Assembly (NCBI RefSeq): GCF_000427405.1
Contig: NZ_KE386491.1
Coordinates: 4,101,812 to 4,165,811, forward strand
Direction of reading: 5' to 3'
DNA length: 64,000 nucleotides
Source: Flectobacillus major DSM 103
GTDB taxonomy: Bacteria > Bacteroidota > Bacteroidia > Cytophagales > Spirosomataceae
In this document: piece after piece, positions 58,434 to 64,000 of the stretch
How positions within the stretch are numbered: the stretch's first letter is position 1
Layout: the number at the start of each line of letters is the position of its first letter
Program-made: the position numbers and the translations under genes
The notes under the pieces: generated by a model
What the model was told of the DNA's origin: nothing
The model's input: only the letters and a program-made list of their open reading frames with translations
Database searches by the model: none

Positions 58434-58464
58434 CAAAATTAGAAATATCTTAGTTATAGCACAA
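58434..58464 (-). promoter_or_regulatory. comA promoter
   Basis: On the minus strand TTG (complement of 58462-58464) and TAATTTTG (complement of 58434-58441), 20-base spacer. Leader to the start at 58312 is about 115 bases. Confidence 0.6.
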
Positions 58465-58592
58465 ACTACTAATTTAATAGATTGTCTTTAAATAATAATC
58501 TATTTTATTTAACTTGCTGTAAATCAGTGTTTTGATTTTTTTCAAAAAATGATTTTTCATAGATTTTTCAAAAAAGATATGTAAAAATTTCA

Positions 58593-58615
58593 TTTACTGA
58601 ACACTGTTTAGTAAA
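58593..58615. promoter_or_regulatory. Candidate TetR operator, site 1
   Basis: A 23-base palindrome centred on one base: TTTACTGAACA-C-TGTTTAGTAAA, with a single imperfect position. Its 14-base core TGAACACTGTTTAG recurs (inverted) just upstream of the TolC gene. It lies about 180 bases before the DUF2147 gene and about 800 before tetR. The rest of the 58313-58793 gap shows only the comA promoter. Confidence 0.55.
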
Positions 58616-58793
58616 TTCACATCGTTGTTAAAATAATCTTCGATATATCATGTAGCCTAATAATATCAGATAGAGAAGGAATCTAAAAAAGTTTTGAGTA
58701 ATATTACTTATCTATTTTGGGAGTCTATATTGATTATCAAAGGATTGAAAACAACCTTCAAAAAGCAAATCTCACAAACCAATATCAATTATT

Positions 58794-59216
58794 ATGAAAA
58801 AAATCGCTTTTATTTTATCAGCCTTACTATTAGTAGCCACTTGGGCAACAGCCCAGCAAACCAACAAAGACGCTATTTTGGGCGAATGGCTTTCAGAGAA
58901 TAAAGACGGAAAAGTATTGATTTATAAACAAGGTGAACAATACTTCGGCAAGGTATCTTGGGGAAAAGACGGTACTAAAAAAGATGTACATAACCCCGAC
59001 GAAGCGTTGCGTTCACAAAATATCATAGGCTCGGTTATTCTAAAAAACTTTACTTTCAAAGGAAAAGCCTGGGAAGATGGCAGTGTTTACGACCCCCAAA
59101 ATGGAAAAACCTATTCGTGTATTATAAAGCTAAAAAATACTAACGAATTAGAAATTCGGGGATATGTAGGTATTTCGTTGTTAGGCCGCACTACGGTTTG
59201 GTCAAGAGTGAAATAA
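58794..59216 (+). CDS. DUF2147 family exported protein
   Basis: 140 residues: signal peptide (MKKIAFILSALLLVATWATAQ) and a DUF2147 beta-sheet domain beginning ILGEWLSENKDGKVLIYKQGEQYFGKVSW and ending LEIRGYVGISLLGRTTVWSR. Homologues bind or process unknown small molecules at the envelope. A palindromic site shared with the efflux operon lies upstream, so it may belong to the TetR regulon. Full length for the family (~140-150). Confidence 0.88.
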   Translation: MKKIAFILSALLLVATWATAQQTNKDAILGEWLSENKDGKVLIYKQGEQYFGKVSWGKDGTKKDVHNPDEALRSQNIIGSVILKNFTFKGKAWEDGSVYDPQNGKTYSCIIKLKNTNELEIRGYVGISLLGRTTVWSRVK

Positions 59217-59418
59217 AGTACATAAGTGAATTATTGAGCATAATGAATAGGGGCTTCTATTGGATTTGTAAATGGGTAATATCTGGGCTAACAGTGTAGT
59301 ATATTGATGCAAAGAAAATTAGTTATTTTTACGGGTGTAGACTGAAACATAAACCCAAGTCAAAGGTTGTCAGCAAAAGTCAATAAACGAACTCACTAAT
59401 TTACCAACGAATAGATAA

Positions 59419-60057
59419 ATGGGTATTATAGAAAGAAAAGAGCGGGAAAAGATGGAGCTTCGCCAGCGAATATTAGAAGCTGCCAAGGAGATTTTTATCG
59501 AAGAAGGTTTTGAAAAAGCATCTATCAGAGCGATTGCCGACAAAATCGAGTACAGTCCCGCTACAATATATTTACACTTCAAAGACAAGGATGAATTGTT
59601 TTTTGCTGTACACGAGCTAGGATTTGACAAGTTATTTGAGGTTACGAAGCACCTAGAAGCTATTCCTGATAGCTTTGAGCAGCTTTATCAACGAGGAAAA
59701 ATCTATTTGCAATTTGCAATAGAAAACCCCGAACTGTACGATTTGATGTTTATTAAAGATGCCCCAATGGAGGCTATCAAGAAAAAAAATGGCGATGACC
59801 AGTGGGATTGTGGCATGCAAAACTTTGTCCATCTTCAAAAAAACATCATGCTTTGTATGGAACAAGGCTACATTCAAGTAGCCGATGTAAATGTAACAGC
59901 TATGTCGATTTGGGCGTATGTGCATGGCTTGGCATCGTTGTATATCAGAGGGCGTTTTCAAACGTTTGCACTCATGAATCCAAGTGCAGATTTACCTCAT
60001 TTAATGGAGGTCTCGCTCGAACAAGTACTAACACTTTTAAAGAAAACAAATGAGTAA
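59419..60057 (+). CDS. TetR-family transcriptional regulator
   Basis: 212 residues. The N-terminal DNA-binding domain (about 12-60) reads RQRILEAAKEIFIEEGFEKASIRAIADKIEYSPATIYLHFKDKDELFF, a standard TetR helix-turn-helix. The C-terminal ligand domain is helical. The next gene, a PaaI thioesterase, overlaps its end by eight bases, so the two are translationally linked. Upstream of a TolC/adaptor/RND efflux operon, it is the natural candidate repressor. Acyl-CoA-type ligands are possible given the thioesterase (inference). Confidence 0.93.
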   Translation: MGIIERKEREKMELRQRILEAAKEIFIEEGFEKASIRAIADKIEYSPATIYLHFKDKDELFFAVHELGFDKLFEVTKHLEAIPDSFEQLYQRGKIYLQFAIENPELYDLMFIKDAPMEAIKKKNGDDQWDCGMQNFVHLQKNIMLCMEQGYIQVADVNVTAMSIWAYVHGLASLYIRGRFQTFALMNPSADLPHLMEVSLEQVLTLLKKTNE

Positions 60058-60490
60058 TACAGCATTGGCTTTTTTTCAACAAAATATTGGAAAACGTATT
60101 GCCGACAATAGTCCATCGCCTGTAGCAAGGTTTTTAGATGGCACACTGATTGCAGCCGAAGAGGGTTCTATAACCGTAGAGTATATAGTGAAAGAAAATA
60201 TGGTAAATCCTGCCCATATTTTGCATGGAGGTATTGCCGCTACGATGCTCGACGATATTATAGGTATGACTGTATTTACCATGGGAAATAATGTTTTTTA
60301 TAGTACAGTAAACCTTTCGGTAGATTATCTTTTTAGTGCAAAAATAGGCGAGAAGGTACTCGTAAAATCGAGGGTAGTGCGGATGGGTAAAAAAATAGCT
60401 CATGCCGAAGGAGAAATAAGAAATGAAAATGGTGTTTTGATAGCAAAATGTACAACCAATTTGGTGGTTACAAGCAATACTATTAAATAG
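60050..60490 (+). CDS. PaaI-family hotdog thioesterase
   Basis: 146 residues. Hotdog domain with MVNPAHILHGGIAATMLDDIIGMTVFTMG (conserved HGG and the catalytic acidic residue) and VNLSVDYLFSAKIGEKVLVKSRVVRMGKKIAHAEGEI. It hydrolyses acyl- or aryl-CoA. Its ATG lies inside the last codons of tetR (overlap of eight bases), so its synthesis depends on the regulator transcript. Confidence 0.9.
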   Translation: MSNTALAFFQQNIGKRIADNSPSPVARFLDGTLIAAEEGSITVEYIVKENMVNPAHILHGGIAATMLDDIIGMTVFTMGNNVFYSTVNLSVDYLFSAKIGEKVLVKSRVVRMGKKIAHAEGEIRNENGVLIAKCTTNLVVTSNTIK

Positions 60491-60623
60491 TTTTAGTTAC
60501 TTTGTCTTTGAATCTTTGAAGCAATAGTAACTAATTGATTTTAAGGATTTACAAAGTGAATTAAGCAGTGAAGATTTAACAGCTTTTTTGGGCTGAAAAA
60601 ATCTAAAAATCCCCTAGTGTTAA

Positions 60624-60654
60624 GACCTGCGAGAGCGATGAACTCTTGCAGGTC
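60624..60654 (+). repeat. 12-bp hairpin GACCTGCGAGAG / CTCTTGCAGGTC
   Basis: Arms 60624-60635 and 60643-60654 (one G-T pair), loop of 7. It lies in the 274-base gap between the thioesterase and TolC genes. No T run follows directly. GC content is higher than its surroundings, which suggests a dispersed palindromic repeat rather than a local terminator. Confidence 0.5.
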
Positions 60655-60716
60655 CAACCAAGTTTGTTGGCATTAATTTTTGGCATAGCCAAAGTTGATG
60701 CTTTTTATTTAACCTT

Positions 60717-60738
60717 ATGCTAAACAGTGTTCATAAAC
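60717..60738. promoter_or_regulatory. Candidate TetR operator, site 2
   Basis: CTAAACAGTGTTCA (60720-60733) is the exact complement of the 14-base core of site 1. It sits 31 bases before the TolC start, where a repressor would block transcription of the efflux operon. Confidence 0.55.
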
Positions 60739-60764: not shown

Positions 60765-62120
60765 ATGAAATATCTACTTACTCTTTTTGGTATGATGCTC
60801 GGATATAGGGGTATAGCCCAGTCCGATTTGCTCAACAAGTATGTACAAGAAGGCTTAGCAAATAGCCAAATTGTAAAACAACAGAACTTTCAACTGCAAA
60901 AGGCCATTTTTGCCCTTAGTGAAGCCAAAACGCTATTCAAGCCCTCTGTCAATTTTAATACTACGCTTTCTTCGGCTTTGGGTGGGCGTACTATCGACAT
61001 CCCTGTGGGCGATTTGGTCAATCCTGTTTATTCTACCCTAAATCAGCTTACTGGTAGTAATGCTTTTCCTCAAATACAAAATGTTAGTGAGCAATTGATT
61101 CCTAAGGATTTTTATGATATGCGTGTTAAAACAACCATGCCTTTAATCAACGCCGAAATCAAGTATAACCAAGGTATCAAAAAAGAACTGATTGCTATGC
61201 AACAAACCGAGGTGGTAGTCTATAAACGAGAATTGGTAAAGGATATTAAAATAGCCTATTTTAATTACTTAAAAGCCTCTGAAGCTCTAAAGGTATATGA
61301 TAATGCCTTGAAAATTTTGAAAGAAAGTGAACGTGTCAATCAAAGCCTTATTCAAAATGGTATGGCTAATCCAACGGTATTGGTCAGAACCAAAAATGAA
61401 ATCGCTGGTATCATGGCCGAAATAGAAGCTGCCAAAGGAACACAGAAAAATGCCGCTGCATATTTCAACTTTTTGCTAAATAAAGATTTTGCTGAAACCA
61501 TTACAATTGACTCGGTTTTTGAAACAAGTATGATTCCTCTCAAAATTGAAGCCAGCCACCGTGAAGAACTAGACAAACTACAAGCAAACCTCAACCTGAA
61601 CCGACAACTATTAGGACTCAGCCAGTCGTACAATAAGCCCAAAATTGGAGCTTCTCTGGATGTAGGTTCGCAGGGGCGTTTTGCCCAAATTGCAAGTGCC
61701 GATAAAAATTTTTTGTCGCCAAATGCTTTTTTCTTAGTTGGTGTTTCTATCGACCTCCCTGTGTATTCTTCTGGGAGAAATCAACTGAAAGTTAAGCAGG
61801 CCGAAATGGATTTAGCCGCAGCCGATACACAGTTACAGTATGTCAAAAATCAATTAGACCTGCAGGTTGTGCTTGCCCAAAATGCCCTAAATGCCGCCCA
61901 TGAAATTGTAGCTTCAAAAGCCACTCAGGTAGCTACTGCCGAAAGATACTACAAAGATATGTTGCGTCGCTACAAAGAAGGAAATCTCAATTTTATAGAA
62001 CTACTCGATGCCCAAACCCAGCTCAATAAAGCACAGCTACAGCAGGCCATTGCTCATTATGATGTATGGCTCAAGTGGACAGAGTTAGAAAGAGCTACGG
62101 CGGCTTATCAATTAAAATAA
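60765..62120 (+). CDS. TolC-family outer-membrane efflux protein
   Basis: 451 residues. The signal peptide ends near YRGIAQ. Two similar halves of long helices with short strands follow, as in TolC: first half with LQKAIFALSEAKTLFKPSVNFNTTLSS, second half with LGLSQSYNKPKIGASLDVGSQGRF, FLVGVSIDLPVYSSGRNQLKVKQAEMDLAAAD and RYKEGNLNFIELLDAQTQLNKAQ. It forms the exit duct of a tripartite pump whose adaptor and RND permease are encoded next, 59 bases away. Confidence 0.93.
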   Translation: MKYLLTLFGMMLGYRGIAQSDLLNKYVQEGLANSQIVKQQNFQLQKAIFALSEAKTLFKPSVNFNTTLSSALGGRTIDIPVGDLVNPVYSTLNQLTGSNAFPQIQNVSEQLIPKDFYDMRVKTTMPLINAEIKYNQGIKKELIAMQQTEVVVYKRELVKDIKIAYFNYLKASEALKVYDNALKILKESERVNQSLIQNGMANPTVLVRTKNEIAGIMAEIEAAKGTQKNAAAYFNFLLNKDFAETITIDSVFETSMIPLKIEASHREELDKLQANLNLNRQLLGLSQSYNKPKIGASLDVGSQGRFAQIASADKNFLSPNAFFLVGVSIDLPVYSSGRNQLKVKQAEMDLAAADTQLQYVKNQLDLQVVLAQNALNAAHEIVASKATQVATAERYYKDMLRRYKEGNLNFIELLDAQTQLNKAQLQQAIAHYDVWLKWTELERATAAYQLK

Positions 62121-62179: not shown

Positions 62180-63229
62180 ATGAAGACAATATACAAGCTC
62201 TCATTATATGCCCTTGTTGCTTTATTGATGGTAACGAGTTGCGGCAAGAAAAAAGCCCATAACAAAACCACACTCGACGATACCGTAATACCTGTAAAAT
62301 TGGTAGATGTAGCCCTAGCCAATGCTACAGAGCCTATCAAAGCTTCGGGCTTGATAAGTTCGTTGCACGAAGCCCGGTTGTCGTTTAAAACAGGAGGTAT
62401 TATTGAAAAAATATGGGTAAGAGAAGGCCAAACGATTCGTAAAGGACAGCTTTTGGCAAGCCTTAATCTTACCGAAATTAACGCTCAGGTACAGCAAGCT
62501 CAAGAAAATGTTATCAAAATAGAGCGTGATTTAAGAAGAGTAAGCAACCTTTACCGAGACTCGGTAGCTACTTTAGAGCAAGTTCAAAATCTTACAACGT
62601 CGTTGAGTGTAGCCAAACAAGGGTTACAGATAGCACAATATAACCAAGGGTATTCTAAAATTTATGCTTCTACCAATGGGGTGGTAGTGAAAAAAATGAT
62701 GAACGAAGGTGAATATGCCAATGTTGGTGTTCCTATCTTTTTTGTCAATGCAGCCAGTGCCAACGACTGGGTGGTGAAGGTTGGTATTGCCGACAAAGAC
62801 TGGACTCGCCTAAAACTAGGCGACCACGCCAGTATTCAGCTCGACGCTTTTCCAGATACCCAATTTCAGGCTATCGTTACGACTTTGTCACAAGGAGCAG
62901 ACCAAGCTTCGGGTTTGTACCAAGCCGAGCTAAAACTGAATACCCAGGGCAAGAAAATAGCGACAGGGTTATTTGCCAAAGCATTGATTAATCCTTCTAT
63001 CAAACAACAATTACCCTCTGTGCCTGTCGATGCAATTATTGAAGGCAATGGCGATGAGGCTTTTGTGTACACTATCGAAAATGGTAAAGCCAAGCGAATC
63101 GCTTTGGTAATAGCCTATATCAACAACCAAAGGGCTTTTGTACAAAGTGGGCTAACGGGCATTACACAGGTAATTACCGATGGTTCGGCGTATTTGGTAG
63201 AAGGAGCAAAAGTAAAAGTGGTTCAATAA
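62180..63229 (+). CDS. RND efflux adaptor (membrane fusion) lipoprotein
   Basis: 349 residues. The lipoprotein signal ends in the lipobox VTSC. A lipoyl/barrel-sandwich domain is split by a helical hairpin: LISSLHEARLSFKTGGIIEKIWVREGQTIRKGQLLASL, then QVQQAQENVIKIERDLRRVSNL, then IYASTNGVVVKKMMNEGEYANVG. Beta-barrel and membrane-proximal domains follow. It links the inner-membrane permease to TolC. Gaps of 59 and 74 bases to its neighbours indicate one operon. Confidence 0.93.
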   Translation: MKTIYKLSLYALVALLMVTSCGKKKAHNKTTLDDTVIPVKLVDVALANATEPIKASGLISSLHEARLSFKTGGIIEKIWVREGQTIRKGQLLASLNLTEINAQVQQAQENVIKIERDLRRVSNLYRDSVATLEQVQNLTTSLSVAKQGLQIAQYNQGYSKIYASTNGVVVKKMMNEGEYANVGVPIFFVNAASANDWVVKVGIADKDWTRLKLGDHASIQLDAFPDTQFQAIVTTLSQGADQASGLYQAELKLNTQGKKIATGLFAKALINPSIKQQLPSVPVDAIIEGNGDEAFVYTIENGKAKRIALVIAYINNQRAFVQSGLTGITQVITDGSAYLVEGAKVKVVQ

Positions 63230-63303: not shown

Positions 63304-64000
63304 ATGAGAATCTCAGAATTTTCCGTAAAAAACTATCAATTTACCCTTGTGGTATTTTTGGCAGTACTTTCAATAGGGCTTTATGCTTTATTTAATATGC
63401 CTAGGGGCGAAGACCCCGAGTTTGAATCGCCTCAATTTGGGGTTACGATTATTTATCCAGGAGCAACCCCCAAAGATATGGAGGAGCTGGTTGTAGATCC
63501 CTTTGAAAAACGCATTAATGAATTAGATAATATCGACAGAATCAGAACGGTTATTTTGGATGGAGCTGCCGTATTTCAGATAGAATACGATTTTTCGCAA
63601 GACCCCGAAGAAAAATACCAAGAGGTAGTCCGTGAAGTAAATGCAATACGCAAAGATTTACCAACCGAAATACTTGATATTAGGGTACAAAAATTCCGCC
63701 CAACCGATGTCAATATTTATCAATTTGCTTTGGTTAGCGAAAATCTGCCCTATTCCAAATTAAAAGAGCAAGCCGACGAATTAGAAAAAAAACTTGAGAA
63801 GGTAAAAGCTCTCACCAATATCAAGTCGTGGGGGTTTCCTGCTCGAAAAGTAGCCGTTGAATTGAATTTGGCCAAAATGGCTCAAGACCAAATCCCTGTA
63901 AATCGGGTTTTAGGGGCAATTCAGTCTGAAAATGTAAATATCCCTGGAGGTAGTATCAATGTCACAACCAAAAAATTTAATATAAAAACGTCTGGAGCGT
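63304..64000 (+). CDS. RND efflux permease, N-terminal part (cut by window end)
   Basis: Open from ATG at 63304 to the last base (232 codons), with no stop. The start MRISEFSVKNYQFTLVVFLAVLSIGLYALFNMPRGEDPEF is the first transmembrane helix of AcrB-type permeases, followed by the porter domain (VTIIYPGATPKDMEELVVDPFEKRINELDNIDRI and NIPGGSINV). Full-length members have about 1000-1050 residues. It pumps drugs, metals or lipophilic compounds with proton energy. The acidic PRGEDPEF start resembles the heavy/multidrug group common in Bacteroidota; substrate unknown. Confidence 0.92.
   Translation, partial: MRISEFSVKNYQFTLVVFLAVLSIGLYALFNMPRGEDPEFESPQFGVTIIYPGATPKDMEELVVDPFEKRINELDNIDRIRTVILDGAAVFQIEYDFSQDPEEKYQEVVREVNAIRKDLPTEILDIRVQKFRPTDVNIYQFALVSENLPYSKLKEQADELEKKLEKVKALTNIKSWGFPARKVAVELNLAKMAQDQIPVNRVLGAIQSENVNIPGGSINVTTKKFNIKTSGA

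Follow-up and report, generated by a model that had tools for sequence, protein, structure and literature searches.

A conserved palindrome on both sides of a tetR gene in Flectobacillus major, the probable operator of a local efflux regulon

In the window (the whole stretch of 64,000 nucleotides of Flectobacillus major DSM 103 that was analysed) a palindrome recurs in the gaps on either side of a tetR gene, and we consider it highly likely that it is the operator of the TetR protein encoded between the copies, which would repress both the DUF2147-tetR-paaI unit and the tolC-adaptor-RND operon. The gene order (calls confirmed by Pfam) runs comA (minus strand), DUF2147, tetR, paaI-like thioesterase, tolC, RND adaptor and RND permease; tetR thereby adjoins a complete OMP-adaptor-RND operon, whose permease gene (1017 aa) extends beyond the window, to about window coordinate 66357. 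The features are as follows:

58593-58615 (no strand assigned): putative operator 1, the 23-bp near-perfect palindrome TTTACTGAACACTGTTTAGTAAA with its core at 58598-58610, in the comA/DUF2147 gap; position and core are kept in eight genomes that share the gene order, as well as in other named relatives
58794-59216, plus strand: DUF2147 gene (PF09917, E 2.7e-35), the first gene behind operator 1
59419-60057, plus strand: tetR (TetR_N PF00440 and TetR_C_33 PF13305), with recognition helix SPATIYLHF at residues 46-54
60050-60490, plus strand: paaI-like hotdog thioesterase gene (PF03061, TIGR00369), overlapping the tetR stop
60669-60709, plus strand: hairpin and U-run resembling a Rho-independent terminator (-15.3 kcal/mol, z -3.45), at the end of the tetR-paaI unit and just before operator 2
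60716-60738 (no strand assigned): putative operator 2, core TAAACAGTGTTCA at 60721-60733, 32 bp upstream of tolC
60765-62120, plus strand: TolC-family outer-membrane efflux protein (PF02321)
62180-63229, plus strand: RND periplasmic adaptor (PF16576; TIGR01730 above cut-off)
63304-64000, plus strand: RND permease, of which the first 232 codons lie in the window

The N-terminal helix-turn-helix of TetR scored 59.8 bits against PF00440 (cut-off 24), its C-terminal domain matched PF13305 above the cut-off, and its AlphaFold model (pLDDT 91.3) had TetR-fold regulators as top Foldseek matches. The N-terminus of the DUF2147 protein, judged by eye, is signal-peptide-like.

A scan of the 6.22-Mb genome returned exactly two copies of the 14-base repeat TGAACACTGTTTAG, at 58598-58611 (plus strand) and 60720-60733 (minus strand), both in the gaps beside tetR, and one additional site with one mismatch, whereas 0.08 exact matches would be expected genome-wide from base composition. 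The sequence-only reading, which had drawn attention to this repeat flanking tetR, is thereby confirmed, and so is its description of site 1 as a 23-base near-perfect palindrome: a single pair, at -5/+5, is mismatched in operator 1, while the symmetry of operator 2 lies mainly within the core. Its warning that a chance 14-base match in the window is not rare was also borne out, as any common 14-mer arose between two composition-matched gaps in 69 of 5000 resamplings (1.4%, p ~0.014 within the window alone). The match in the window is thus suggestive by itself, and the weight of the palindrome rests on its conservation.

The gaps around the operators gave no Rfam match for an RNA element. Upstream of operator 1, in the comA/DUF2147 gap (58455-58575), blocks such as ATAGATTGTCTTTAAATAATA and AAAAAATGATTTTTCATAGATTTTT are kept in eight genomes, a conservation beyond that of plain spacer which perhaps marks the comA promoter region. 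Between paaI and operator 2 lies an inverted repeat, GACCTGCGAGAG..CTCTTGCAGGTC (60618-60655); none of the aligned relatives showed it, and its left arm has no second copy in the genome.

Judged by its conservation, the 13-bp core of the repeat, TRAACANTGTTYA, is very probably a real operator, and a deeply conserved one. With the core pattern read backwards as control, we found it at all 30 tetR loci examined in this genome and its relatives within the order (27 exact, 30 within one mismatch), and the 107 kb around these loci held 43 exact copies, as against one for the backwards control and 0.0 in Markov resampling. In a class/phylum sample, 32 of 39 tetR loci had the core within one mismatch; it was absent at this threshold from the other seven, several of which carry the variant associated with Thr48 (see below). 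Among the 80 best named relatives, which were found by peptide patterns including the recognition helix and never by the DNA site, the core was near tetR in every case (63 exact, 17 with one mismatch), compared with no exact and two near matches of the control. These relatives, the nearest named congener being Flectobacillus sp. BAB-3569, include Dyadobacter, Spirosoma, Runella, Chitinophaga, Pedobacter, Saprospiraceae and Ignavibacteria, as well as KSB1, Calditrichia, Nitrospirae and Methanoperedens records; the three sets (order, class/phylum and named) partly overlap. The comparison of orthologous efflux operons that the sequence-only reading had proposed hence finds the motif conserved upstream of them. 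At ten loci of distant TetR genes TRAACANTGTTYA was found at none, but these genes were dropped as a clean negative control, since two of them carry a T/A variant and may be relatives of the system. Six archaeal records (L211, L216, L221, L224, L234 and L244; Methanoperedens and an uncultured archaeon) hold TetR relatives of 43-51% identity with a near-operator 4-40 bp upstream and no TolC match nearby; such close relatives of a bacterial TetR point to either transfer or binning error.

Genome-wide, the motif is not scattered: the core had five matches versus three for the backwards control, a difference made up by the two sites beside tetR, and a relaxed pattern had fewer matches than its own control. 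Across nine genomes the core occurred 40 times against 23 for the control, an excess explained by the tetR-linked sites; most of the others fall in coding sequence or lack conservation. Motif occurrence elsewhere is therefore at chance level, and by this count the TetR of the window is a local regulator. A global regulator with many scattered sites was rejected on the same five-to-three comparison; further regulon members were likewise rejected, the other core matches in the nine genomes equalling the control count and most of 20 inspected sites lying inside genes or having no common neighbour.

The usual architecture in the relatives is operator-tetR-operator-tolC-mfp-rnd, with the operators usually ~25-50 bp before tetR and ~11-50 bp before tolC. 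Between the first operator and tetR, Flectobacillus, Arcicella and Pseudarcicella have DUF2147, which lies some 35-50 bp behind that operator in Arcicella and 183 bp behind it in the window. Other lineages have DUF2147 behind tetR with an operator of its own (L085, L087) or behind the RND gene (L082, L083); TetR at these more distant loci is 45-50% identical to that of the window, and the recurrence of DUF2147 beside them suggests a functional link with TetR proteins of the window type. One congener (L088, G001:C45) has, as its second such locus, a paralogous tetR-tolC-mfp-rnd cluster at which three TTRAACASTGTTCAA-type operators lie.

The sites, their positions and conservation, the promoter geometry of the relatives, the local regulon and the covariation of the helix are read from sequence; from there we infer TetR binding, repression, induction and read-through into tetR. 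Without inducer, a TetR dimer would sit on operators 1 and 2 and cover the -33/-7 spacer of both promoters, blocking RNA polymerase; on operator 1 it would hold down DUF2147-tetR-paaI, a negative autoregulation, and on operator 2 the tolC-adaptor-RND efflux operon. A ligand, which may be a substrate of the pump, an aromatic compound or one resembling acyl-CoA, would release TetR, and pump, DUF2147 and repressor would be induced together. Because paaI overlaps the tetR stop, the two genes are probably co-transcribed, and the terminator-like hairpin between paaI and operator 2 (arms GCATT.../...GATGCTTTTTATTT, kept in most congeners) implies that tolC probably has a promoter of its own, with operator 2 serving it.

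The regulon foreseen in the sequence-only reading (DUF2147, tetR-paaI and the pump) is supported by conservation and covariation, except for the separate site that it had placed upstream of tetR: the weak relative of the motif at 59287-59298 exists but aligns with nothing in seven relatives. We regard it as unlikely that tetR-paaI has its own promoter and its own weak operator at 59287. While GCTAACAGTGTA resembles part of the motif and the DUF2147-tetR gap is longer in the window (202 bp) than in relatives, the corresponding gap of the seven relatives, in which the 59287 stretch is unaligned, measures 22-107 bp and holds no site. From this alignment it appears more likely that tetR-paaI, as the last part of a DUF2147-tetR-paaI operon controlled at operator 1, is autoregulated by read-through.

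A Bacteroidota promoter consists of TTG, about 19-21 bp and TAnnTTTG. Among 76 sites upstream of tetR, 34 have a TAnnTTTG whose first base is at +8 relative to the operator centre, and 33 of the 76 have TTG at -16 or -15; at the tolC-side sites TTG lies at -18/-17 in 41 of 67, with a weaker -7 element, so that the overlap of operator and promoter, clear before tetR in the relatives, is weaker before tolC. By these positions, the operator upstream of tetR is in the relatives the spacer of a Bacteroidota promoter, which implies promoter-occluding repression. In the window the DUF2147 promoter is degenerate in both elements, and its -33 together with the 183 bp between operator 1 and DUF2147 counts against the proposed mechanism; since the -33 TTG reads TTC (several congeners have TTG), the following assignment is a putative one:

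58612-58619, plus strand: TAAATTCA, a degenerate -7 element that overlaps operator 1 in its right arm, assigned from relatives

Beside operator 1, congeners carry TAnnTTTA at the -7 position. Some TetR proteins activate, and the exact overlap at operator 1 is not established in the window, where the promoter elements are degenerate; even so, it is improbable that TetR activates, or acts both ways, at these operators rather than being a simple repressor, as activators usually bind upstream of -33 and the operator of the relatives sits in the -33/-7 spacer, contributing its outer arm to the -7 element, a place for occlusion.

That the TetR subfamily of the window itself reads the palindrome is very likely from the covariation between residue 48 of the recognition helix and the base at -5/+5, counted after thinning to <85% identity. 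With Thr48 the operator had T/A at this pair in 31 of 33 cases (T/C in the other two), as against none of 99 with Ala48 or Gly48; G/C was found in 23 of 32 with Gly48 versus 11 of 67 with Ala48, whose other operators almost all have a purine at -5. On a tree built without the covarying columns, the Thr48 trait changes six times and the T/A operator seven times. The Thr48 contrast gave six independent pairs, only two on well-supported branches, with agreement in nearly every pairing, and the Gly48 versus Ala48 contrast gave six supported pairs (on average 4.4 agree and 0.1 disagree); owing to the few pairs, sign tests on the tree did not reach 0.05 at the median. Residue 48 presumably aligns with Pro39 of TetR(B), which we take to be a known specificity residue.

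It is very unlikely that another regulator, encoded elsewhere, reads the palindrome and that its adjacency to tetR is incidental. In its favour, cores can be common to related TetR proteins, the variant TTAACANTGTTAA lies upstream of some distant TetR genes (L133, L153), and the case for TetR as the reader is drawn from sequence; against this, the site follows tetR across phyla and rearranged gene orders, stays at chance level elsewhere in the nine genomes, and its -5/+5 base tracks residue 48 of the window TetR. The chance of a coincidental 14-base match, for which the 1.4% of resamplings speaks, is negligible, being already refuted by a core kept in 30/30 and 80/80 relatives with a nearly absent backwards control.

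On balance, we favour the broader view that one TetR subfamily has a simple code at -5/+5 of NNAACANTGTTNN (by residue 48: T:A for Thr, A or G for Ala, preferentially G:C for Gly), that this code has persisted across Bacteroidota, Nitrospirota, KSB1, Calditrichota and the archaeal bins of Methanoperedens, and that the Flectobacillus/Arcicella clade recruited DUF2147, which has no known function, into the efflux regulon. This would define, at the level of sequence, the operator of a widespread TetR subfamily fronting RND pumps in Bacteroidota, making pump regulons readable from genomes; it would also give TetR DNA specificity a one-residue rule that can be tested, and hint at a function for DUF2147 (efflux or envelope stress).

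Among solved structures, none comes from a close relative of the window TetR; the best by sequence is PvrA of P. aeruginosa (7w2o, E 3.9e-11), and PvrA and FadR of Bacillus, TetR-fold fatty-acid regulators, rank at the top by fold. They share about 20% identity with the window TetR, whose targets, apart from the thioesterase, include no fatty-acid genes; their relatedness and the linked thioesterase make an acyl-CoA-like ligand thinkable. The NCBIfam AcrR and MtrR models match this TetR only far below cut-off, and its assignment as an AcrR equivalog was rejected (NF007949, 36.8 bits vs cut-off 271).

In open-licence papers we found neither the operator and its breadth nor the DUF2147 link or the residue-48 rule; literal searches for several versions of the motif matched only unrelated papers there, and the titles and abstracts of papers on DUF2147 with TetR gave no functional link. 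The circuit type, a local TetR repressor of an RND pump, is already known. In Bacteroides fragilis, according to a review (PMC4790292), the TetR repressor BmeR5 reportedly binds between bmeR5 and bmeC5, in the intergenic region, and bmeR5 deletion raises pump expression. By that description, BmeR5-bmeABC5 resembles the window system in phylum and in having a TetR gene beside an RND operon, and differs in that the passages on it mention neither DUF2147 nor paaI as a partner. In CmeR-CmeABC (Campylobacter), MexZ-MexXY (Pseudomonas) and AcrR-AcrAB, a local TetR repressor binds an inverted repeat in the pump promoter (PMC4790292, PMC9736018), and they are in this like the circuit predicted here; unlike them, the window has a second operator, before the DUF2147-tetR-paaI unit.
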